A stretch of DNA of 28,228 nt. It comes from a virus. The notes beneath the pieces were generated by a model. That model searched no databases. It had not been told where the DNA came from and saw nothing but the letters and a program-made list of their open reading frames with translations. Shown here piece after piece: positions 2,704 to 23,563 of the stretch (position 1 is its first letter; the number at the start of each line of letters is the position of its first letter). A program made the position numbers and the translations under genes. Location of the stretch: the IMG/VR virus record IMGVR_UViG_3300017917_004147, positions 1 through 28,228 of that record; one strand, given 5' to 3'.

Positions 2704-3357
2704 TTAATTTTTAAAGTCAACTAATAAATTAAAGTATTTTTTTCTATACTCTGATCTCCATAAAAATAAAACTAAATTATATCTATTTCCTGTAATAACT
2801 TCATTTACAAAATGTGGGAAATTCATATCTCCTTTAAAAAAAATAAGAGTACCAGGCTTAGGTTTTAATTTTAATTTATGATCAGGAAACTCTATTTCTC
2901 CGCCACTATAAGAGTCGTTTAAATAAAAAATAGCAGAATAATCAGGCTCTAATCCAATCTGCTTAATAATATTCGGATCTGTACCATAAGAAAAATAAAA
3001 ACTACCATCTTTATCATAATTATCATAATGTTCTTCTAATTTAGACCCTGGAATCATTTTTCCATAAAAAATTGTTTTAAAATCTAATGTATCTTTATAA
3101 TGTTCTGACATAATATTTTTTATATTTATCAAAACATTAGTTATCATATCTACAGAGATATTTTTATTAGACTCTTCAGAATATTCATAAAATATACGTT
3201 CATTCCCAACCTGCCATGCATTTTCTAAAGAGTGCCCAGGACCAGCAAAAATTCCATTATTATTTGTATGATTAAATGAATCTTTAAAAGAGTCTATTAT
3301 GAAATCACAAGAGTCTTTTGATAATAAATTTTCTATTATTTTTACATTATTTTCCAC
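2704..3357 (-). CDS. prolyl-4-hydroxylase-type 2OG-Fe(II) oxygenase
   Basis: A 217-residue protein. The double-stranded beta-helix is in the C-terminal half: Fe(II) ligands His110-Tyr-Asp112 (LEEHYDNYD) and His182 (FPHFVNE), with Arg192 in GNRYNLV as the expected 2-oxoglutarate ligand. The family signature FYLNDSYSGGEIEFPDH and the PKPGTLIFFKG turn lie between them. These enzymes hydroxylate a substrate using O2 and 2-oxoglutarate; P4H-family members act on proline or other residues of proteins. The N-terminal 90 residues are a variable helical region. The start is GTG, 6 bases after the minus-strand TATACT box, with no ribosome binding site. It is transcribed alone and ends at the terminator at 2611-2644. 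Confidence 0.85.
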   Translation of the reverse strand: MENNVKIIENLLSKDSCDFIIDSFKDSFNHTNNNGIFAGPGHSLENAWQVGNERIFYEYSEESNKNISVDMITNVLINIKNIMSEHYKDTLDFKTIFYGKMIPGSKLEEHYDNYDKDGSFYFSYGTDPNIIKQIGLEPDYSAIFYLNDSYSGGEIEFPDHKLKLKPKPGTLIFFKGDMNFPHFVNEVITGNRYNLVLFLWRSEYRKKYFNLLVDFKN

Positions 3358-3389: not shown

Positions 3390-3833
3390 ATAAAAACCTG
3401 CGGATCTTGTACAAAATGTTGTGATGGAACACTTGCCAATGTAGTAAGAGGGCATACGATGTTCCCTGGAAAGCCATGTTTTTTTCTAGAAATAGGTGGA
3501 GTTTGTACCGATTATGAAAATAGACCAAAAAATCCATGTATAGATTATAAGTGCCTATGGTTACAGCAGCCAGATGTCCCAGATTTTATAAAACCAGAAA
3601 ATGCAAATGCAATTATAGATATTGCAACATTTAAAAATAGAAAGTATTTAAGATTAATTAAATCATATGAGGAGCATAGCCCAGACATACTTACGTATGC
3701 TATAGAATATGCAAGATTTAATAAGCTTCCATTAATATGGAATGATAGTTCAGGTAATTTTCACCATTTAGGTGACAATGTTTTTTGTTTAGAAGTTATA
3801 GAAAATATGAGTAAAAAAAATTATGTCTCATAG
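3390..3833 (+). CDS. YkgJ-like cysteine-cluster protein, apparent AUA start
   Basis: From the first in-frame ATG (3459) the protein has 124 residues, but the same frame is open upstream and encodes TCGSCTKCCDGTL, the hallmark N-terminal Cys cluster of YkgJ-like (putative zinc/iron-chelating) proteins. Further family features follow: GKPCFFLE, a Cys before the RP motif (CTDYENRP), NPCIDYKC and LW. The only plausible start that includes the cluster is ATA at 3390, placed 5 bases after AAGGAG (3379-3384); an in-frame TAA lies just before, and no ATG, GTG or TTG is available. The full protein would be 147 residues. It overlaps the next oxygenase gene by 11 bases. A metal-handling role is inferred. 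Confidence 0.7.
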   Translation: MKTCGSCTKCCDGTLANVVRGHTMFPGKPCFFLEIGGVCTDYENRPKNPCIDYKCLWLQQPDVPDFIKPENANAIIDIATFKNRKYLRLIKSYEEHSPDILTYAIEYARFNKLPLIWNDSSGNFHHLGDNVFCLEVIENMSKKNYVS

Positions 3834-4365
3834 AATAAAAATAATAAAAAATTTATTAGATAAAAATGAATGTCAATATTTAATATCATTAATTAAAAAT
3901 GGCAAAATTTCAGTTTTTAAAGATAGTAAAAGTGCAAGAATATTAGAAGAATCTGAAGAAGTTAACAGAATTCTTAAAAAATATTCAGATATATTAACCG
4001 AAGCTCATAGAAAAGAGTACGGATTCTACCCAGAATTATATACAACTCAAGCATATTTAACTGCATGGGTAGAAGGTGGATATGCAGGACCACATATAGA
4101 TAATCCTAGACATGGTGATGGATTCATACAATTCAGTAGCATTATATACTTAAATGAAAATTTTGAAGGTGGAGAAATTGAATTTCCAAATCAAAAATTT
4201 AAATATAAAGCAGAAGAAGGTTCTGCTGTTATTTTTCCAAGCGCAGGTACAGAATATATACATAAAGTTAATAAAGTAGAGTCTGGAATTAGGTATACTA
4301 TAGCAATGTGGCACTCTAGCAGAAAAGATAGAGCTAGTAAAAGTTTGTATCCAGAACTTTATTAA
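3823..4365 (+). CDS. prolyl-4-hydroxylase-type 2OG-Fe(II) oxygenase
   Basis: A 180-residue compact P4H-family enzyme. Fe(II) ligands are His91-Ile-Asp93 (GPHIDN) and His147 (IHKVN); Arg157 (GIRYTI) should bind 2-oxoglutarate. The signature IIYLNENFEGGEIEFPNQ lies between them. A short helical N-terminus precedes the core. The start overlaps the cysteine-cluster gene by 11 bases, so translation is coupled. The gene converges on the minus-strand operon and the two stop codons share the bases TTAA at 4362-4365, with no terminator between them. The substrate is unknown. Confidence 0.88.
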   Translation: MSHRIKIIKNLLDKNECQYLISLIKNGKISVFKDSKSARILEESEEVNRILKKYSDILTEAHRKEYGFYPELYTTQAYLTAWVEGGYAGPHIDNPRHGDGFIQFSSIIYLNENFEGGEIEFPNQKFKYKAEEGSAVIFPSAGTEYIHKVNKVESGIRYTIAMWHSSRKDRASKSLYPELY

Positions 4366-4556
4366 TTAATATTTTTTAATAGATCTTTAGAAGATAGAAC
4401 ATCTAAAATATCTGAACATACTTGTCTGTAATAAGGTTGCGATGCTAGAATTTGTTTTTCTAATTCTATAAGGCTAGCATTTGATTCAACTGCAACTCTT
4501 CTATTTCTTATATTTATTGATTCAACCATTAGTTCAATTACTGCAAATTTATCCAT
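4362..4556 (-). CDS. small protein of unknown function (lysis operon, 4th gene)
   Basis: A 64-residue protein starting MDKFAVIELMVESI. It is predominantly helical by composition, with charged and hydrophobic residues alternating and no membrane segment. I do not recognise a family. The ATG is preceded by AGGAG with a 7-base spacer and overlaps the upstream gene by 8 bases, which supports real translation. It is the last gene in the operon headed by the transglycosylase. Confidence 0.6.
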   Translation of the reverse strand: MDKFAVIELMVESINIRNRRVAVESNASLIELEKQILASQPYYRQVCSDILDVLSSKDLLKNIN

Positions 4557-4770
4557 TTTCTTGCTCCTTTTCAGATGTAAATGATGGGACTGGTCCTAGT
4601 AGATATCCCTGATCATGATATGCTATTAATTTAGAAACTTCATCCCCACCATCATTAGATGTATTTTTTGCTACAAGTGTAAGAATATCATATATTCTAT
4701 GTAGCATAATATATGTAACCATAGGGAGGTTGTCTTCTAAATTTTTTTGTTCTTTCATGTCGTCAGACAT
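4549..4770 (-). CDS. small acidic protein of unknown function
   Basis: A 73-residue protein starting MSDDMKEQKNLEDN. A helical segment (TYIMLHRIYDILTLVAK, about residues 19-35) is flanked by acidic, Asp/Asn/Gly-rich tails. No known domain is recognised. The helix is amphipathic rather than clearly transmembrane. It overlaps its neighbours by 8 bases on each side and has a GGTGG-type ribosome binding site. Co-expression with the transglycosylase makes a lysis-related role possible but unproven. Confidence 0.6.
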   Translation of the reverse strand: MSDDMKEQKNLEDNLPMVTYIMLHRIYDILTLVAKNTSNDGGDEVSKLIAYHDQGYLLGPVPSFTSEKEQENG

Positions 4771-4975
4771 TTTTATCCACCTTTTCTTTTATACTATTAT
4801 ACAATTTTTCTCCTATAAAGTTCTTATAGGAACAAGATAGACAGTATAAGTATATATTATCTTCTAAATCTAAATTACAAAGAAGAAGGCCTTGGTCCAT
4901 TGGGCATTCTAGCCTAGGTACAAGACCCTCTTCTGATAAAGCTATATATTTAGATACATATTGTATCTGTTTCAA
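4763..4975 (-). CDS. small zinc-ribbon-like protein
   Basis: A 70-residue protein with Cys-Pro-Met-Asp near residue 24 and Cys-Leu-Ser-Cys near residues 46-49, plus a further Cys between. The CPxD...CxxC pattern resembles a small zinc ribbon. The start is TTG, preceded by AAGGAG with a 6-base spacer; the ribosome binding site overlaps the stop codon of the upstream transglycosylase gene, so the two are coupled. Function is unknown. Confidence 0.6.
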   Translation of the reverse strand: MKQIQYVSKYIALSEEGLVPRLECPMDQGLLLCNLDLEDNIYLYCLSCSYKNFIGEKLYNSIKEKVDKNV

Positions 4976-4984
4976 TATCGCTCC

Positions 4985-5536
4985 TTAAGATGCAGGAAAC
5001 TCCGAAATAAGATTCCGTGCCTTTCCAATAGAATTGGGCCAAGAGGACCAATCCGTGCCGCCTTTACTCATATAGTACGTTATCTCTGCGTTTGTTACTG
5101 GATCAAATAATTCCTTATTTGAAACTAAATTGAATTTTTCTAATCTCTTTATGCCTAAATTACCAAGCATATTGATTTGGAAAATTCCGTAAGATTTATC
5201 TCCAGTTGATTTGTTGTCATTAAGAGCCATAGGTCTTCCATTTGACTCAATTCTGGCAACAGCCCAAGCTGTTTTTAAAGCAGTTCCTTCAAATCCTACA
5301 GCCCATAATAAATCTTTTAAATCTGTTGCCGTAAGCATTTCTGAACTACTATATTTATCGTTACTGAACTTGCTTATTATTTCTCTCTTTAGTTGTCTTT
5401 CAGTTTTTTCTACCTTTGCAGGTAGCGCTTGACTTTCAGTTGGCCCAGGTTGGACGGAAAATAGAAATAATGTTATCATTCCTATTGTCACCCAACTATG
5501 AACAACATCGCTCAAACGTTGTTTGATTCTCTCCAT
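4985..5536 (-). CDS. membrane-anchored lytic transglycosylase (lysozyme-like)
   Basis: About 183 residues. The N-terminus has a basic segment, then a hydrophobic span (WVTIGMITLFLFSV, about residues 15-28) that serves as signal anchor or signal peptide. A charged linker follows, and then a lysozyme-like SLT domain from about residue 70: the catalytic Glu in AVARIESNGRP, SYGIFQIN, and a C-terminal YYMSKGGTDWSSWP. It should cleave peptidoglycan glycan strands, either for host lysis or for genome entry. The ATG at 5536 is preferred over the one at 5542 because AAGGAGG is 8 bases from the former and only 2 from the latter. It heads a four-gene operon. Confidence 0.8.
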   Translation of the reverse strand: MERIKQRLSDVVHSWVTIGMITLFLFSVQPGPTESQALPAKVEKTERQLKREIISKFSNDKYSSSEMLTATDLKDLLWAVGFEGTALKTAWAVARIESNGRPMALNDNKSTGDKSYGIFQINMLGNLGIKRLEKFNLVSNKELFDPVTNAEITYYMSKGGTDWSSWPNSIGKARNLISEFPAS

Positions 5537-16617: not shown

Positions 16618-17925
16618 ATGAGTAAAAGATCTGGAAGAAAATCCCAGCAAGCAAATGATTTCTTGCAACCATATAAACCAATAATTGATTCAGTATCAGA
16701 TGTTGGTACAGGTAGAGCATATAACGACGGATCAGCATCAATTTCATTTAGTTTACCTGCAGGATCCCAGCCAGCAGATTCATTTACAGTAACCTCTAGT
16801 CCAACTGGATTAACAGTGACAGGTTCATCATCACCGTTAGTAATTACAGGATTAGCCTCTAATACGGAATATACATTTACAGTATATGCAACAAATTCTT
16901 ATGGTAATTCTGAAATATCTGATGCTTCTAGTAATGTATTAATTACTACTGTACCACAAGCTCCACTCTCTCCTTCAGTTTCTTCAACTATAGCAGATAA
17001 AGATGACGTCTCATGGACAGAGCCAGCAAGCGGTGGTAAAGCAATTACATCTTATACCGTAGTTTCTTCAGATGGTCCATCTTATCAAAATATTACAGGA
17101 TCATCCTATCAAGTTTCAGAAACAGGAGGAACTTCACAAAGTTATACTATTTATGCTATTAATGCTAATGGTACATCTTTAGGAGGAACTACAAGTCAAG
17201 TAACAACATTCTTCTCCCCACCATCATTCTTTGCTCCTCCAGGATTCTTCGGTCCACCACTATTCTTTGGCCCTCCAGGATTCTTCGGCCCACCACTATT
17301 CTTTGGCCCTCCAGGATTCTTCGGCCCACCACTATTCTTTGGCCCTCCAGGATTCTTTGGCCCTCCAGGATTCTTCGGCCCACCTAGATTCTTTGCTCCT
17401 CCAGGATTCTTCGGTCCTCCATACTTCAGTAAGTGTCTTCATGATGACACACCAGTAACAGTTGTTGGAGAAAATGATTCTATAGAATATAAACCAGCAA
17501 AAGATGTTCAAGAAGGAGATTGGATTTGGGCAGTAGAAATCCAAGAATTACCTTCAGATGAAGCAGCTTATTCATCACTATTCTGGACAAGTCCTACAGC
17601 GACATTTAATGGATTAGTAAAAACAGAAGTTATAAATAAGTATACTTCTTTAGCAGAAGAAACAATAATCATAAATAATGATCCTTCTTCTAGATTTACT
17701 AAAGAACATCCAATGTTTATTACTAGAAATGGTCAAAATAGTTTTATTTTAGCCGATTCTATTCAAGTTGGAGATATTTTATCAAAACATGATTCATCAG
17801 GAAATATCTATACAGAAGAAATTACTTCTATAGATGTAATAGTTGAAGAATGTACTGTTCATACCTTCAATGCCGAACCTTATGATTTAATTTATGCCAA
17901 TGGCATATTAACACATAATAAATAA
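16618..17925 (+). CDS. fibre protein: FN3 x2, FFxPP repeats, C-terminal Hint domain
   Basis: A 435-residue protein with four parts. Residues 1-30 are basic and then neutral. Residues 30-197 hold two fibronectin type III domains (ITGLASNTEYTFTVYATNSY; WTEPASGGKAITSYTVVSSD). Residues 198-269 are twelve hexads FF(G/A/S)PPx. Residues 273-435 are a Hint domain: Cys273-Leu-His-Asp-Asp-Thr-Pro at its first residue, then VQEGDWIWAV, the block-B motif FTKEHPMFITRNG, and a block F/G end, HTFNAEPYDLIYANGILTHN, with one Lys left after His433-Asn434. Hint domains cleave or ligate themselves through the first Cys and last Asn. As no Cys/Ser/Thr follows the Asn, splicing is unlikely and cleavage or nucleophile attachment is favoured. 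AAGGAG precedes the ATG. Confidence 0.85.
   Translation: MSKRSGRKSQQANDFLQPYKPIIDSVSDVGTGRAYNDGSASISFSLPAGSQPADSFTVTSSPTGLTVTGSSSPLVITGLASNTEYTFTVYATNSYGNSEISDASSNVLITTVPQAPLSPSVSSTIADKDDVSWTEPASGGKAITSYTVVSSDGPSYQNITGSSYQVSETGGTSQSYTIYAINANGTSLGGTTSQVTTFFSPPSFFAPPGFFGPPLFFGPPGFFGPPLFFGPPGFFGPPLFFGPPGFFGPPGFFGPPRFFAPPGFFGPPYFSKCLHDDTPVTVVGENDSIEYKPAKDVQEGDWIWAVEIQELPSDEAAYSSLFWTSPTATFNGLVKTEVINKYTSLAEETIIINNDPSSRFTKEHPMFITRNGQNSFILADSIQVGDILSKHDSSGNIYTEEITSIDVIVEECTVHTFNAEPYDLIYANGILTHNK
17209..17424 (+). repeat. tandem 18/36-bp repeats encoding FFGPP hexads
   Basis: Twelve 18-bp units encode FFxPPx hexads; alternate units (GFFGPP, LFFGPP) form a 36-bp higher-order repeat that is nearly identical in the centre. 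Open frames in the other reading frames here are by-products of the repeat. Confidence 0.9.
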
Positions 17926-17950
17926 CATAGACAAAAATAAAATATTTTGA

Positions 17951-17983
17951 TATACTAAGATTTACTAGTAGAAAGATATTTAT
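17951..17983 (+). promoter_or_regulatory. possible promoter of the oxygenase cluster
   Basis: TATACT at 17951-17956 (in TTTTGATATACT), followed by a leader with GAAAGA about 6 bases before the TTG start at 17984. No terminator was found after the Hint gene, so read-through is also possible. Confidence 0.4.
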
Positions 17984-18601
17984 TTGAAAAAGCAAGAAGT
18001 CGGTTATGGAATTTGGCTGTACGAAGACGTATTCCCAGACTCTTTAAATCTAATTAATAGATTAGAAAATACTATAGAGCAAAGTAATGGTATTTATTCT
18101 TGGAAAGAGGCTATGGTTGGCTGGAAGAAAAAAGTTCCAGAGTACAGAAATTGTTTAGATTTTAAAATTTCAAAATCAAATAATATTTCAGTAATAAAAA
18201 ATAAAAATAGTTTAGAAATTCAATCTATTTGGCAAGATTCTTATAATGCTCAAAAAGATTGTTTAGAAGATTATTGCAAAATGTATAATATTAAACTAGA
18301 TTATTGGGAAGCTTTTAATTTTGTTAAATATTTTGAAGGTCATCATTTTGAAGAACACTCAGACCATGGAGACGCATATGTTTGTACTGTATCTGGTGTT
18401 GGTTATTTAAATGATGATTATGAGGGTGGAGAACTATTTTTCCCTAAATTAAATATATATATAAAACCACAGGCAGGACAATTATATTTATTTCCTTCTA
18501 CCTTTATATATTCTCATAAATCTTTACCAATAAAAAACGGAATTAAATATTCAATAGTAACTATGTTTGACTATAACGATAAACATCATAAAGGAGTATA
18601 A
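17984..18601 (+). CDS. 2OG-Fe(II) oxygenase (P4H type), first of a tandem pair
   Basis: A 205-residue enzyme. Fe(II) ligands are His125-Ser-Asp127 (EEHSDHGD) and His178 (YSHKSLP); Lys188 (NGIKYSI) stands where Arg normally binds 2-oxoglutarate. The family signature GYLNDDYEGGELFFPK is present. The N-terminal 110 residues include WLYEDVFPDSLNLINRLE and YWEAFNFVKY. The start is TTG. It is paralogous to the next gene (same EAFNFVKY, HSDHG and GGELFF segments), consistent with tandem duplication. It is the first gene after the Hint-domain fibre protein. Its substrate is unknown; virion protein is the leading guess. Confidence 0.85.
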   Translation: MKKQEVGYGIWLYEDVFPDSLNLINRLENTIEQSNGIYSWKEAMVGWKKKVPEYRNCLDFKISKSNNISVIKNKNSLEIQSIWQDSYNAQKDCLEDYCKMYNIKLDYWEAFNFVKYFEGHHFEEHSDHGDAYVCTVSGVGYLNDDYEGGELFFPKLNIYIKPQAGQLYLFPSTFIYSHKSLPIKNGIKYSIVTMFDYNDKHHKGV

Positions 18602-19297
18602 ATGTTATCAAACGCTGAATACCTAGCCCCAGGAATAATGGTTTATAGAAACGTTTTCCCAGAATCTATGAATTTAATTAATCGTCTAGAATCAGAATTA
18701 TCAAAAGAAAATAATTCATATAAATGGAAAATAGCACAAACTGGTTATTCGTACACAGATAAAAGATATAGAGATTGTGCTGATTTTAAAATTAAAAGCA
18801 ATGATAATGGACATTTAATGCTAGGCGGAGAAATGGTAATGCCAGAAAACAAAACCGATACAGAAATAGCTTTAGAAAAAATATGGGAAGACTCCTATAA
18901 AGCTCAACTAGGCCCAGTAGAAGATTATAGAAAACTTTTCGGACTTGCCCCACTTAATTATTGGGAATCTTTTAATTTTGTTAAGTATGGAAAAGATCAG
19001 CATTTTCAAGTACATTCCGACCATGGATACTCCTACATATGCGTACTATCTTCAGTAGGATATATAAATGATGATTATGAAGGAGGAGAATTATTTTTTG
19101 ATAAAATTAATTTAAAGATTAAGCCAAAAGCTGGAGACTTATATCTTTTCCCGTCATCCTACATATATTCCCACGCAGCAATGCCAGTAACAAAAGGAGT
19201 CAAATATTCTATAGTAACAATGTTAGACTATTTAGAAGCTCCTCATACCCCAGACTATAGAAAAATTGAAAAAAGATATACAGAAAATTATTTATAA
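18602..19297 (+). CDS. 2OG-Fe(II) oxygenase (P4H type), second of a tandem pair
   Basis: A 231-residue paralogue of the preceding enzyme. Fe(II) ligands His138-Ser-Asp140 (QVHSDHGYS) and His191 (YSHAAMP), with Lys201 (GVKYSI) as the 2-oxoglutarate contact. Signature GYINDDYEGGELFFDK. It differs by an insertion near residues 70-90 and a C-terminal extension rich in basic and Tyr residues. The ATG follows the previous stop codon directly and GGAG lies 4 bases before it, so both are made together. Confidence 0.86.
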   Translation: MLSNAEYLAPGIMVYRNVFPESMNLINRLESELSKENNSYKWKIAQTGYSYTDKRYRDCADFKIKSNDNGHLMLGGEMVMPENKTDTEIALEKIWEDSYKAQLGPVEDYRKLFGLAPLNYWESFNFVKYGKDQHFQVHSDHGYSYICVLSSVGYINDDYEGGELFFDKINLKIKPKAGDLYLFPSSYIYSHAAMPVTKGVKYSIVTMLDYLEAPHTPDYRKIEKRYTENYL

Positions 19298-20001
19298 TGT
19301 ATAGAATAAAAGCATATACAAATGATAATTCTGCCAATATTTCTCAAATAAATATTAAAAGAGATTGGATGGATAACACTGTAGACGGTCATGCCTATAG
19401 ATGTTTCCCAGTTACTTTAGCAAATGGCTTAGGTTGGGGTCTCTCTTTTCCTAAAGATATTTCATTTATATGGGACGGGATATCAGATACTTCTGGACAT
19501 CATGTAAAAATATTAGAAGGAGAAGAGTATTGTTATACTGAAAGGGCTAACGCTACTATTAGTTTTAAAACAGGAATTATTTTTGAAACAGACCCTGATG
19601 TGAGTTTACTACAGATGCCAGTTCCAAATATGTTTATAGATGGAGCTCAAGCTTTTACAACAATAATGAGCACTTCATTTTTTAAAGGAGAATTTCCGTG
19701 TGCTTTAAGAATAAATAAACCATTTACAAAAATCACTATAAAAGCAAATCAACCATTTATATCTATTATTCCAATATCATTAACCAAATTACAAAATTCT
19801 TTTATTGAAATTGATGATCCTAAAAATATAAAACATAATGTAGTTTTGAATGGAGATGAGCATGTAGAAATAGTTAAAGAAAAAACAAATAATGGTCAGT
19901 GGACAAATTTTTATAGAGATGCTGTTAATTATAAAGGGCAAAAAATAGGAGAGCATGAAGTAAAAGCTATTAGGCTTCATGTAAATAATAAAAATGACTG
20001 A
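19297..20001 (+). CDS. DUF6065-like protein
   Basis: A 234-residue protein with the pattern RCFPVTLANGLGWGLSFP followed by WDG, and later KITIKANQPFISIIPI. This resembles the DUF6065 family, found in phages and bacteria near oxygenases and glycan genes; its function is not established. The fold appears all-beta, and no catalytic triad is obvious. TAATG overlaps the previous stop by one base. The next gene has the same overall order of motifs and may be a distant paralogue. Confidence 0.6.
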   Translation: MYRIKAYTNDNSANISQINIKRDWMDNTVDGHAYRCFPVTLANGLGWGLSFPKDISFIWDGISDTSGHHVKILEGEEYCYTERANATISFKTGIIFETDPDVSLLQMPVPNMFIDGAQAFTTIMSTSFFKGEFPCALRINKPFTKITIKANQPFISIIPISLTKLQNSFIEIDDPKNIKHNVVLNGDEHVEIVKEKTNNGQWTNFYRDAVNYKGQKIGEHEVKAIRLHVNNKND

Positions 20002-20710
20002 TATAATTTTTCATTCATCTAGAGAATATAATAATAAATCAAAAAATTATTTACCAATACCTGCAAAAAAACAACAACCAGACTGGTTTTCAAAATCAAG
20101 CAAATATTGGAAAAATGATAAAGGTGAAGATTTAATTAATAATTTTGGAAAAATTTTAGGATTCAAATCGTGCCCAGCACTATTAGATTCTTTTTCTTTA
20201 GGATATTTATTAACAACTCCTTGCGATTTAGCATTTTTTGAGTATAAAGACAATATTTATGTAGAAACAGAAGAGGGGTTTTCAGAATTTTGTGGAAGAA
20301 GAGATGATATGTATGGATTCCCTGTCCCACATGGATATAGAAAACAACATTTTCATTGGTGGCCAAATTGGTCTATTGAAACCCCACCAGGATATAGTTC
20401 AATCATTATGCATCCTTTAAATAGGTACGATTTACCTTTTTTAACAACTAATGGTATTATTGATAGCGATATGTATACTATTTCTGGGCTACTACCGTTT
20501 TTTTTAAAAAATGATTTTATTGGCCTACTCCCTAAAGGTACACCATATGCTCAAATAATTCCATTTAAAAGAGAAGAATATAGTATGAAAACCGTTATGC
20601 ATAGTCAAGATGAAATGTTTATAAAGCATACGGAAACTGCAAAAAATTTTAGAGTAAAAGATGGAGGCGTATACAAAAAAACAATTTGGTCTCCTAAAAA
20701 ATATGAATAG
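19994..20710 (+). CDS. DUF6065-related protein, remote paralogue of the preceding gene
   Basis: A 238-residue protein. Near residue 20 it has LPIPAKKQQPDWF, then KSCPALLDSFSLGYLLTTPC, HFHWWPNWSIETPPGYSS and GLLPKGTPYAQIIPFKREEY. The order (a G(W/Y)-LxxPxD strand, a central hydrophobic beta part, then a K-x-P/Q-IIPF strand) parallels the preceding gene. I recognise the type from phage genomes but not its function. Several His and Trp residues lie around residues 111-118. It overlaps the previous gene by 8 bases. Confidence 0.55.
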   Translation: MTDIIFHSSREYNNKSKNYLPIPAKKQQPDWFSKSSKYWKNDKGEDLINNFGKILGFKSCPALLDSFSLGYLLTTPCDLAFFEYKDNIYVETEEGFSEFCGRRDDMYGFPVPHGYRKQHFHWWPNWSIETPPGYSSIIMHPLNRYDLPFLTTNGIIDSDMYTISGLLPFFLKNDFIGLLPKGTPYAQIIPFKREEYSMKTVMHSQDEMFIKHTETAKNFRVKDGGVYKKTIWSPKKYE

Positions 20711-20721
20711 GATAAATATTT

Positions 20722-21444
20722 ATGGTATTTGAAAATGCTAACGAAAAAGATGTTATTTTAAATTATGATGCTTTAAAAGAGGGAAGGCACATAAGAAAAT
20801 CCAGACAGTCAATAACCCCATCTGGATATTTTGGATCATCCCCAGACATGATAAAAGAAATAGAAAATTTTTTAACTGAAGAAGAACAAACTACTTTATT
20901 AAATTTTGCTAAAAATAATAAAATATGGGATGTCACAGAATCTCATTATAATGAAAATGGAACTATTATTTATGACCATAGAGTTTGGGAAAATAGAGTA
21001 GCAACTTTAAATACGCTTATGAAAGCAGATGAAAGTATTGTTTTGATGTTGAGAAAAATTATAGATAGACTGAAGCCTATTATAGAAGAATTTTATAATG
21101 TAGAAGCAATATCTACAAATCCAGCAATTGTTAGGTGGCCAAAAGGAACTTATCAGTTCCCACATGCAGATAAAGAATTACACGAAGGACCAGATGCAGG
21201 AACAGAAAATGATTTTCCTTGGTATGATTTAGGAACTATTTTTTATCTTAATGATGACTATGAAGGCGGAGAATTACATTTTCCAAAACAACAGATATCT
21301 TTTAAACCCAAAGCTAGGGCAGCATATTTTTTCCCAGGAGATTTAAATTATATCCATGGAGTAAATATAGTTCAAGAAGGATGTAGGTATACTTCTCCTT
21401 GGTTCTGGACTATTAAACAATTAAAGGGATCAAAAAATGTTTGA
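20722..21444 (+). CDS. 2OG-Fe(II) oxygenase (P4H type)
   Basis: A 240-residue enzyme with a long N-terminal helical region. Fe(II) ligands are His148-Ala-Asp150 (FPHADKE) and His212 (YIHGVN); Arg222 (CRYTSPW) binds 2-oxoglutarate. Signature IFYLNDDYEGGELHFPK and FKPKARAAYFFPG. The insertion between the HxD motif and the signature (LHEGPDAGTENDF) is longer than in its neighbours and may shape the substrate cleft. AGGA lies about 8 bases before the ATG. It overlaps the next gene by 8 bases. Confidence 0.88.
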   Translation: MVFENANEKDVILNYDALKEGRHIRKSRQSITPSGYFGSSPDMIKEIENFLTEEEQTTLLNFAKNNKIWDVTESHYNENGTIIYDHRVWENRVATLNTLMKADESIVLMLRKIIDRLKPIIEEFYNVEAISTNPAIVRWPKGTYQFPHADKELHEGPDAGTENDFPWYDLGTIFYLNDDYEGGELHFPKQQISFKPKARAAYFFPGDLNYIHGVNIVQEGCRYTSPWFWTIKQLKGSKNV

Positions 21445-22150
21445 AATTACAAAGCATAAAGATGATGTTTTTACAATTAAAAATTTTATAACTAAGGATG
21501 AAGCTGATAGAATTATTGCTTACTTAGAAATGTCTGTTCAGATGGGATATATAAAATGGAACGAAATTTCATTTTATGAATCATATGCAATGGGATTTTG
21601 GGAATACGACAATAATTTAATTCCTTTTGGATTTGACCCAAAATATTTTCATTCTTTAAAAGAAAAAATTAAAAAAGCTTCCGAAGATTGTTTCGGAAAA
21701 GAGCTTTCAGAAATTAGTTATCATGCTCAAAAGTGGATTAAAGGAGCATTTGCAGACTTTCATTCAGATAATTCAGATAAAGAAGGAAATCCAACAGCGT
21801 TTCAAAGAAGTAAATATGCATCATTTTTATATTTAAATGATAATTTTGAAGGAGGATATTTAAATTTTGAACATTATCCTATAAATATTAAACCTGAAGT
21901 TGGCATGATTGCAATCTTTAGAGGCGGTCATGGAAATGAGCATGAAGTTACAACCGTAAGATCTGGTGAAAGATACACTATAGGATCATTTTGGGACGAT
22001 GCAGATGCAGTATATACAGATGAACAAAGAGCAGCCTGGGAAGCAGAGTTAAAAGTAACTCGTGCAGAACAAGATGTTATGTATAAAAAGTGGGCAGAAG
22101 ATAGAGCAGCAGGAATAGTTCCTCAATATAAAAGTAAATATGGATTATAA
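21437..22150 (+). CDS. 2OG-Fe(II) oxygenase (P4H type) with basic C-terminal tail
   Basis: A 237-residue enzyme. Fe(II) ligands His109-Ser-Asp111 (FHSDNSD) and His169 (GNEHEVT), with Arg179 (GERYTI) for 2-oxoglutarate. Signature FLYLNDNFEGGYLNFE; the usual acidic residue of GGEIEF is replaced by Tyr-Leu-Asn. A helical tail of about 50 residues (EQRAAWEAELKVTRAEQDVM, then YKSKYGL) extends beyond the core and may mediate partner binding. It is coupled by overlap to the previous gene. Confidence 0.87.
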   Translation: MFEITKHKDDVFTIKNFITKDEADRIIAYLEMSVQMGYIKWNEISFYESYAMGFWEYDNNLIPFGFDPKYFHSLKEKIKKASEDCFGKELSEISYHAQKWIKGAFADFHSDNSDKEGNPTAFQRSKYASFLYLNDNFEGGYLNFEHYPINIKPEVGMIAIFRGGHGNEHEVTTVRSGERYTIGSFWDDADAVYTDEQRAAWEAELKVTRAEQDVMYKKWAEDRAAGIVPQYKSKYGL

Positions 22151-22164
22151 TAGAAAGGTAAGCC

Positions 22165-22980
22165 ATGGAAGAGAAGTTAAACTATAAAACGTTATACCCT
22201 AAGATAGACGTATACCCAGACGCAATTCCAAATATACAAGAATTTATAGAAACAATTAAAGAATCTGAAAAAAATTCTAATGGAAGATATTATTTAAGAA
22301 AATGGGACCAATGGTCAATTTTTGGAACATATACTCAACAAAAACATGAAGCACATGAACCAAGAGAATATGGAGAAATGTATGATAGGGAGAAAAAACT
22401 ATCAGATACAGTTTATGAAGTATATAATAAAGCTTTAAAGGATTACATAGTAAGAAATCAAGTCACCCTACCAGAAGGTACACAATTAATGACATCATCT
22501 TTTTCTAAATATAAAAAAGATCTAGATGTTCTGGAAAATAATTTAGCAATGCAATATCATACCGATTTTAAAATTTTTGAAAAAGAACTCCCAGGACAAA
22601 AATTTTTTATGACCTGCACCATTTACTTAAATGATGATTATGAAGGTGGAGATATAGAATTTTTTATAGATAATCAATTTATTTCTCATAAGCCAAAAGC
22701 TGGAGATATTTTAATATTTCCTTCTACTCCTCCTTATTATCATGGAGTTAAGACTATCAAAAGTGGAGAAAAGTTTTTTATTAGAAATTTTTTAACATAT
22801 CCTTATGAAGGATCACAAAATTGGTTATTGGGACAAAAAATTTACGGTCCAAGAGAATGGTTGGCAATGGAAGAAGAAAGAATTGCTAAAGAAATGCCAT
22901 ATGCTATGCTCTATTTTGAAAATGGAAAACAAATTTCTTACGAAGAAAAAATTAAAAAAAGTGAAAATTACCAGTCTTGA
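22165..22980 (+). CDS. 2OG-Fe(II) oxygenase (P4H type), extended form
   Basis: The longest enzyme of the group, 271 residues. Fe(II) ligands His132-Thr-Asp134 (MQYHTDF) and His193 (YYHGVK); Lys203 (GEKFFI) takes the 2-oxoglutarate position. Signature IYLNDDYEGGDIEFFIDN and SHKPKAGDILIFPST. The C-terminal 60 residues (GSQNWLLGQKIYGPREWLAM, EERIAKEMP) lie outside the catalytic core. Upstream is AGAAAGG about 5 bases before the ATG. The 3' end overlaps the next gene by 20 bases. Confidence 0.87.
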   Translation: MEEKLNYKTLYPKIDVYPDAIPNIQEFIETIKESEKNSNGRYYLRKWDQWSIFGTYTQQKHEAHEPREYGEMYDREKKLSDTVYEVYNKALKDYIVRNQVTLPEGTQLMTSSFSKYKKDLDVLENNLAMQYHTDFKIFEKELPGQKFFMTCTIYLNDDYEGGDIEFFIDNQFISHKPKAGDILIFPSTPPYYHGVKTIKSGEKFFIRNFLTYPYEGSQNWLLGQKIYGPREWLAMEEERIAKEMPYAMLYFENGKQISYEEKIKKSENYQS

Positions 22981-23563
22981 AGATAAAATTATATATTACG
23001 AAAATCTAATTCCAGACGTAGATAATTTTATTAAGTTGTCAGAAAATGTAGAAGAACAATATTCTACATTTTTTTCTCCATGGAAAGATTGGTATTCAAG
23101 TAATACCAATTCTCTTTATGGAAAATTTAGAAGCGGATCATTCTCGGCTGCATTAAACTATTCTCATAATAAATCTAATACTTATCACATAGCTAAAACC
23201 ATTAAAGACTTAATGGATATATGCGTTAAAGACTATTGTAAAAAAACTAATAATAAATCTGGACACATGCCAGACTATTTTGCAATTAATAAATATAATA
23301 CTAATGCTTATATGGGACCTCATGTAGATACGGAAGATAGAACAAATAAACATAAGCCATCTATATCGATGGTTTTTTACTTAAATGATAATTATGAGGG
23401 TGGAGAAATTGAATTTCCAAATCAAAATATCAAATTAAAACCAAGCGCTGGAAGCTTAATAATATTCCCATCATATGAACCATACTTGCATGACCCAAAA
23501 CCAGTTTCTTCTGGATCAAAATACATGATTCCACTCTTTTGGTTTGAAGAAAAGTTTTGGTAA
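22961..23563 (+). CDS. 2OG-Fe(II) oxygenase (P4H type), GTG start
   Basis: A 200-residue enzyme. The frame is open from 22805, but the upstream 52 codons are a shadow of the preceding gene in another frame (Lys-rich, no homology). The GTG at 22961 gives a normal N-terminus like its relatives (ITSLEDKIIYYENLIPD). Fe(II) ligands His121-Val-Asp123 (GPHVDTED) and His177 (YLHDPK); Lys187 (GSKYMI) is the 2-oxoglutarate contact. Signature VFYLNDNYEGGEIEFPNQ closely matches the enzyme at 3823. No strong ribosome binding site; coupling to the overlapping upstream gene is likely. Confidence 0.85.
   Translation: MKITSLEDKIIYYENLIPDVDNFIKLSENVEEQYSTFFSPWKDWYSSNTNSLYGKFRSGSFSAALNYSHNKSNTYHIAKTIKDLMDICVKDYCKKTNNKSGHMPDYFAINKYNTNAYMGPHVDTEDRTNKHKPSISMVFYLNDNYEGGEIEFPNQNIKLKPSAGSLIIFPSYEPYLHDPKPVSSGSKYMIPLFWFEEKFW

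Follow-up and report, generated by a model that had tools for sequence, protein, structure and literature searches.

A candidate fibre prolyl-hydroxylation cassette in phages linking aromatic-PP repeats, P4H-type oxygenases and DUF6065 proteins

Mimivirus modifies its own fibre-type proteins with one bifunctional collagen hydroxylase/glycosyltransferase, a lysyl enzyme with collagen as the substrate. Chlorovirus PBCV-1 encodes a prolyl 4-hydroxylase (P4H) that acts on Pro-containing peptides and whose role is unknown (PMC7019647); viral use of P4H has been termed cryptic (PMC9301287). 2-Oxoglutarate (2OG)-Fe(II) oxygenases are common in marine phages, and those of cyanophages have been discussed as repair-like genes (PMC2984593). 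Here we analyzed the whole IMG/VR record IMGVR_UViG_3300017917_004147 (28,228 bases; hereafter the window), in which a gene for a fibre-like protein with aromatic-PP repeats is followed by six genes for P4H-type 2OG oxygenases and by two genes for DUF6065-like proteins. We read this block as a dedicated cassette for post-translational prolyl hydroxylation of the fibre, with a probability of about 0.7. Genome comparison strongly supports a link between the enzymes and the repeats; enzyme family and nearest solved structures suggest what the chemistry would be.

The oxygenases of the window belong to the same PHROG (phrog_61) as those of cyanophages, a group of frequent, mostly unexplained phage genes; oxygenases went without mention in the freshwater phage papers compared. 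Bacillus anthracis P4H and the collagen prolyl 4- and 3-hydroxylases (P4H/P3H) share with them the 2OG-Fe(II) oxygenase type and the residues HxD...H...K/R, and are their best matches of solved structure: sequence profiles placed B. anthracis P4H (E 2e-9) and prolyl 3-hydroxylase 1 nearest. Unlike these systems, the window has several paralogues in fixed slots, and the substrate proposed here is FF[ASG]PPx or FFPP, whereas the collagen enzymes act on X-Pro-Gly of collagen. The PBCV-1 enzyme resembles those of the window in being virus-encoded and, as proposed for the window, in acting on Pro-containing peptides; to our knowledge, chloroviruses have no linked multi-P4H/DUF6065 cassette. The Mimivirus system would be alike in that a virus modifies its own fibre-type proteins, but differs in its residue, its substrate and its single enzyme.

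Repeat fibre and oxygenase block of the window

The fibre-like protein (435 aa; 16618-17925, + strand) contains fn3 sequence (aa 35-105, E 7e-12; one or more domains), exactly twelve contiguous FFxPPx hexads with 24 Pro (aa 198-269; 17209-17424, +), which are the proposed substrate, and a C-terminal Hint domain (aa 273-435; 17434-17922, +). A fibre with twelve such hexads and a terminal Hint domain had been described in an earlier note on this DNA, as had six oxygenases with intact HxD...H ligands behind it, and both descriptions were borne out. Over the homologues, the repeat consensus was FF[ASG]PPx, with Gly after PP in about half of the intact units; this consensus reflects residue frequencies only, and the mixture of tetrads and hexads in the arrays confounds codon analysis in unit register. 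In other phages the repeats are of the FFPP/YFPP type.

The six oxygenase genes of the block all lie on the + strand: a (17984-18601, with a TTG start), b (18602-19297), which is the core P4H located directly 5' of the DUF6065 gene and common to all lineages found, c (20722-21444), with orthologues in a contractile-tailed lineage, d (21437-22150), e (22165-22980) and f (22961-23563). The longest open reading frame of f begins at 22805, but its start is probably the GTG at 22961, because its relatives are about 200 aa long. Two additional PF13640 oxygenase genes (3823-4365, +; 2704-3357, -), absent from the earlier note, lie outside the module and its orthologue clades. All eight PF13640 genes of the window exceeded the curated cut-off and kept the HxD...H iron ligands and the K/R for 2OG; the same residues were intact in 613 of the 634 homologues, and nearly all the others show gaps there.

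Between b and c lies a gene (19297-20001, +) whose product scored 98.4 bits against DUF6065 (PF19541; cut-off 26.6), followed by a second gene (19994-20710, +) whose product had no Pfam match, hence none to DUF6065 above its cut-off, but matched phrog_7084. The profile of phrog_7084 is related to that of DUF6065 (hhalign 94%, E 9e-8). Of the two related DUF6065-like genes claimed earlier, one is thus a member of the family by score and the other a distant relative by profile-profile comparison only. The genes of the block were likewise said to overlap or abut from the fibre onwards; this is so within the block, but the fibre gene is separated from it by 58 nt. That gap holds a promoter-like element (TAGACA-17-TATACT preceded by TG; 17928-17956, +; a consensus match only) ahead of the oxygenase operon, and a similar element is present in the close relatives L009, L010 and L017. 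At another locus, L061, two unannotated genes (4112-5369) stand between the fibre gene and the P4H block, and a similar gap of 1-2 kb was seen in other contigs.

Linkage of repeats, P4Hs and DUF6065 across phage lineages

Linkage was assessed in several scans; the loci of the P4H- and DUF6065-seeded ones were best matches, a non-random set that had nevertheless not been picked for repeats. A search seeded with the fibre yielded at least 79 contigs, in which the gene order of the window, which the earlier note proposed to look for in related phage genomes, recurred down to 34-40% fibre identity. Employing a DNA pattern of three tandem FFxPPx units, which is blind to oxygenases, we found P4H/DUF6065 neighbours at almost every locus. 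Bacterial matches to the same pattern (L204-L214) showed no P4H nearby; therefore, the DNA pattern alone does not pull in P4Hs, and a chance low-complexity match as the source of the hexads was rejected.

For a scan seeded with the core P4H, we counted distinct loci for which 4 kb or more of upstream sequence was available. Among the matches listed, 39 of 40 such loci had a frame with aromatic-PP repeats no more than 6 kb away; at the fortieth (L348), a YFPP-repeat fn3 protein was encoded 8 kb upstream. DUF6065 was also present at 77 of the 80 core-P4H-seeded loci among the matches listed. Conversely, at 34 of 37 distinct DUF6065-seeded loci (again among the matches listed) at least four aromatic-PP motifs occurred in one upstream frame, and the three others encoded a short fn3-bearing protein containing PP/aromatic motifs, together with a single P4H. 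With all seeds pooled, a P4H was located within 5 kb of 106 of 118 distinct repeat proteins, the exceptions being mostly the second repeat protein of the same contig. The P4H- and DUF6065-seeded searches thus found no block without a PP-containing fibre-like protein. The earlier note had named oxygenases that occur consistently without the fibre gene as a refutation, and its proposal of a Pro-rich fibre modified by the oxygenases passed this test; hydroxylation itself we infer.

The trio of PP-repeat tail, core P4H and DUF6065 recurred on contigs with unrelated portals and with different carriers of the repeat (fn3, short non-fn3 and S74-ended proteins). The contigs of L117, L143, L296, L301 and L307 have a different portal, of the phrog_9232 type; that of L117 bears tail sheath and baseplate wedge genes and therefore belongs to a contractile-tailed phage. 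Among the further portals tested (contigs of L311-L313, L316 and L317 and twelve from L334-L407), one was of the phrog_9232 type, four matched the window portal at 22-23%, and the rest matched neither. Three P4Hs are encoded on a contractile-tailed contig of 98 kb, and every one of them lies beside the hexad gene and DUF6065. In a P4H tree, a quick one with long branches outside the supported sets, the P4H slots formed orthologue clades across lineages: P4Hs just 5' of DUF6065 from all lineage groups made up one set (29 rows, SH-aLRT 97), and P4H c of the window-type and phrog_9232-portal groups, together with L311, another (support 90).

The portal of the window is 57-61% identical to those of Streptomyces phages of Stanwilliamsviridae, and the gene order GT-RNR-LamG-p9394-portal is common to both (Streptomyces phages Muntaha and Blueeyedbeauty). 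These phages, alike in portal and order, are without the RNR-to-LamG segment of the window, hence without the fibre, P4H and DUF6065 block. In isolated phages, one record matched the fibre (33% identity over a third of its length), no relative of the DUF6065 protein was found, and the product of 18602-19297 gave weak matches, with none comparable for the fibre and the DUF6065 protein. The location of the block between tail fibre genes and LamG/portal genes, in a segment that the Streptomyces-phage relatives lack, would also suit oxygenases whose presence in a host-recognition island reflects shared inheritance and which target host proteins or other virion proteins, such as the LamG protein or other tail proteins, rather than the repeats. 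The extra P4Hs elsewhere in the window and in a close relative of it, a 113-kb contig (portal 94%), fit that explanation as well. We nevertheless consider it unlikely, because the trio persists with different carriers and unrelated phage backbones and because the contractile-tailed loci L292-L310, like L311-L317, showed no LamG homologue.

One clade of fibre homologues (L057, L058, L063-L065, L067 and L083-L085) retains the fn3 and Hint-like parts but has FGFSPF repeats without PP. In the available sequence of these phages, the P4H block and DUF6065 were not found; one P4H lies beyond RNR and comes from outside the clades of the module. By RNR (82% identical) and p9394, L061 is closest to them; this locus carries ten hexads, seven P4Hs and DUF6065. 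Portal data group the clade next to phages with hexads (support 91, on a long branch). The joint absence of PP repeats and block, like the prolyl hydroxylases found as nearest structures, speaks for the repeats as the substrate. It also bears on the idea that hydroxylation falls on a different residue or elsewhere in the same fibre (e.g. on an Asn, Lys or Asp of the fn3 or Hint part) and that the repeats serve structure only. PF13640 does include non-prolyl hydroxylases, but the PP repeat is common to all carriers while fn3 and Hint are dispensable, and in the phages with FGFSPF repeats the fibre has its fn3 and Hint-like parts although the block is absent; this idea is accordingly quite improbable.

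We therefore favour prolyl hydroxylation of the repeats, in which the P4H-type 2OG/Fe(II) oxygenases would act on prolines of C-terminal aromatic-PP repeats (FFxPPx; FFPP/YFPP elsewhere) of a fibre presumably located in the virion. Each paralogue, in its own orthologous slot, would probably serve one sequence context or step, and the DUF6065/phrog_7084 proteins would assist them, perhaps as trimeric scaffolds or as chaperones that present the tail. Hydroxylation would stiffen a tail that is very hydrophobic and prone to aggregate, and would make it more polar and soluble, or let it adhere to the host surface. The broader proposition, for which we see somewhat better than even odds, is a widespread, transferable cassette by which several unrelated phage lineages pattern their aromatic-PP fibre tails with hydroxyproline, using a dUTPase-fold scaffold and prolyl hydroxylases specific to their slots, from a single one up to about a dozen. 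If so, phages hydroxylate proline of their own fibres, bacterial viruses possess a dedicated fibre-tip hydroxylation system, these phages would need oxygen, iron and 2-oxoglutarate for adsorption, and DUF6065, which no paper in the literature searched was found to name, gains its first functional context. The genome evidence names a substrate that can be checked with short peptides; candidate peptides of the repeat type are FFGPPGFFAPPG and FFPPYFPP.

Several observations weigh against this reading. The P4H of chloroviruses is conserved and active on peptides, yet no hydroxyproline was found in their virion proteins (PMC7019647). The linkage could stem from joint inheritance of a host-recognition island, and the joint absence of PP repeats and block is one event, either a joint loss or a joint gain. 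P4H number and PP number correlated only moderately (Spearman 0.42, uncorrected for relatedness). The 113-kb relative has thirteen P4H calls, six in the module and about seven outside it (calls at contig ends may be cut); therefore, other P4H roles exist in these phages. In the same contig, the fibre is richest in PP motifs (12), and next comes an 809-aa protein with PPVEE repeats and an N-terminal hydrophobic segment (G012, the contig of L009, 79893-82322), which has no adjoining P4H. From its sequence, the PPVEE protein is a possible further target of proline hydroxylation.

Roles of the DUF6065 proteins and the Hint domain

AlphaFold2 models of the DUF6065 and phrog_7084 proteins were confident, with pLDDT values of 88 and 83, respectively. 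The DUF6065 protein is predicted to adopt a dUTPase-like (beta-clip) fold: in a Foldseek search of the PDB, its best matches were all dUTPases (E 2e-4; TM 0.66 by target, 0.36 by query). The PDB matches of the phrog_7084 model were also mostly dUTPases, weaker and alone below significance. Such matches, combined with TET/AlkB-like 2OG oxygenases, would suit a block that modifies DNA or nucleotides. By eye, the phrog_7084 protein has GIIDxD and KGTPxxQIIP, which recall dUTPase motifs 3 and 4 only, and a phrog_7084 relative lies near RNR in halovirus HF2. However, none of the five dUTPase catalytic motifs was seen by eye in the DUF6065 protein, the oxygenase profiles match protein prolyl/lysyl hydroxylases rather than nucleic-acid enzymes, and what the block is linked to is a gene for a repeat protein rather than DNA genes. 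A role in DNA or nucleotide modification is thus very improbable. Because the catalytic motifs are mostly missing, a scaffold or binding role of the two proteins is likelier than dUTP hydrolysis. Distant phrog_7084 relatives were located at 6857-7741 of L216 (halovirus HF2) and 9001-9795 of L215 (cyanophage Sf-CH8); no annotated 2OG oxygenases adjoin the relatives in haloarchaeal tailed viruses and cyanophages.

The Hint domain of the window has its N-terminal Cys (Cys273), the block-B TxxH (TKEH) and the C-terminal HN, followed by K, and self-cleavage is predicted; its Pfam score was under the curated cut-off (Intein_splicing PF14890, 19.3 bits versus 35.8). Located right after the repeats, it probably cuts itself off and so would leave them C-terminal, as they are from the start in many relatives. 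Long tails of the Hint type follow the repeats in 88 homologues; a pattern search found all three catalytic residues in 8 of these, and 15 are without the Cys. Elsewhere the repeats are followed by the S74 self-cleaving chaperone (L100), by Cys-rich tails or by almost nothing; 40 tails are short, some of them cut by contig ends, and 33 of the 37 arrays in the P4H-seeded set end within 12 aa of the C-terminus. We infer that the mature protein carries its repeat tail at the C-terminus, with Hint and S74 as two ways to free it. The release or cross-linking of the fibre by Hint, as the earlier note had it, is not general: homologues without Hint, without its catalytic residues or with another domain keep the hexads and the enzymes. 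This variable presence rules out Hint as an essential partner.

Collagen-type repeats and additional repeat proteins

A collagen-type (G-X-Y) substrate, also entertained in the earlier note, is not needed. No G-X-Y runs of 5 or more were found in the window outside the hexads and none longer than 3 in the 113-kb relative, and such a substrate was ruled out. The collagen score in the window was 13.6 bits, under the Pfam cut-off of 27.2.

Short hexad proteins (60-150 aa) without fn3 or Hint also occur beside P4H/DUF6065, as found in the DNA-pattern scan. A PASTA-like domain in them was discarded, since Pfam gave no confirmation for L115 and L143 and found PASTA only in L065 and L050. In the contractile-tailed lineage (L117/L303, L306, L307 and L309), the short hexad gene appears to be split by a +1 shift of frame behind ...AKPTIAA. 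Several contigs have it at one and the same site, possibly as a programmed frameshift or a shared assembly error; homologues of the L115 type are intact, with no frame change. Second, upstream proteins with Hint-like C-termini were seen at L044 (802-2019), L065 (2019-2915), L050 (2418-5045) and L077 (1298-3955), some of them bearing PASTA domains and FFxPPx or PPSGPP repeats; therefore, one phage may have several such tips.

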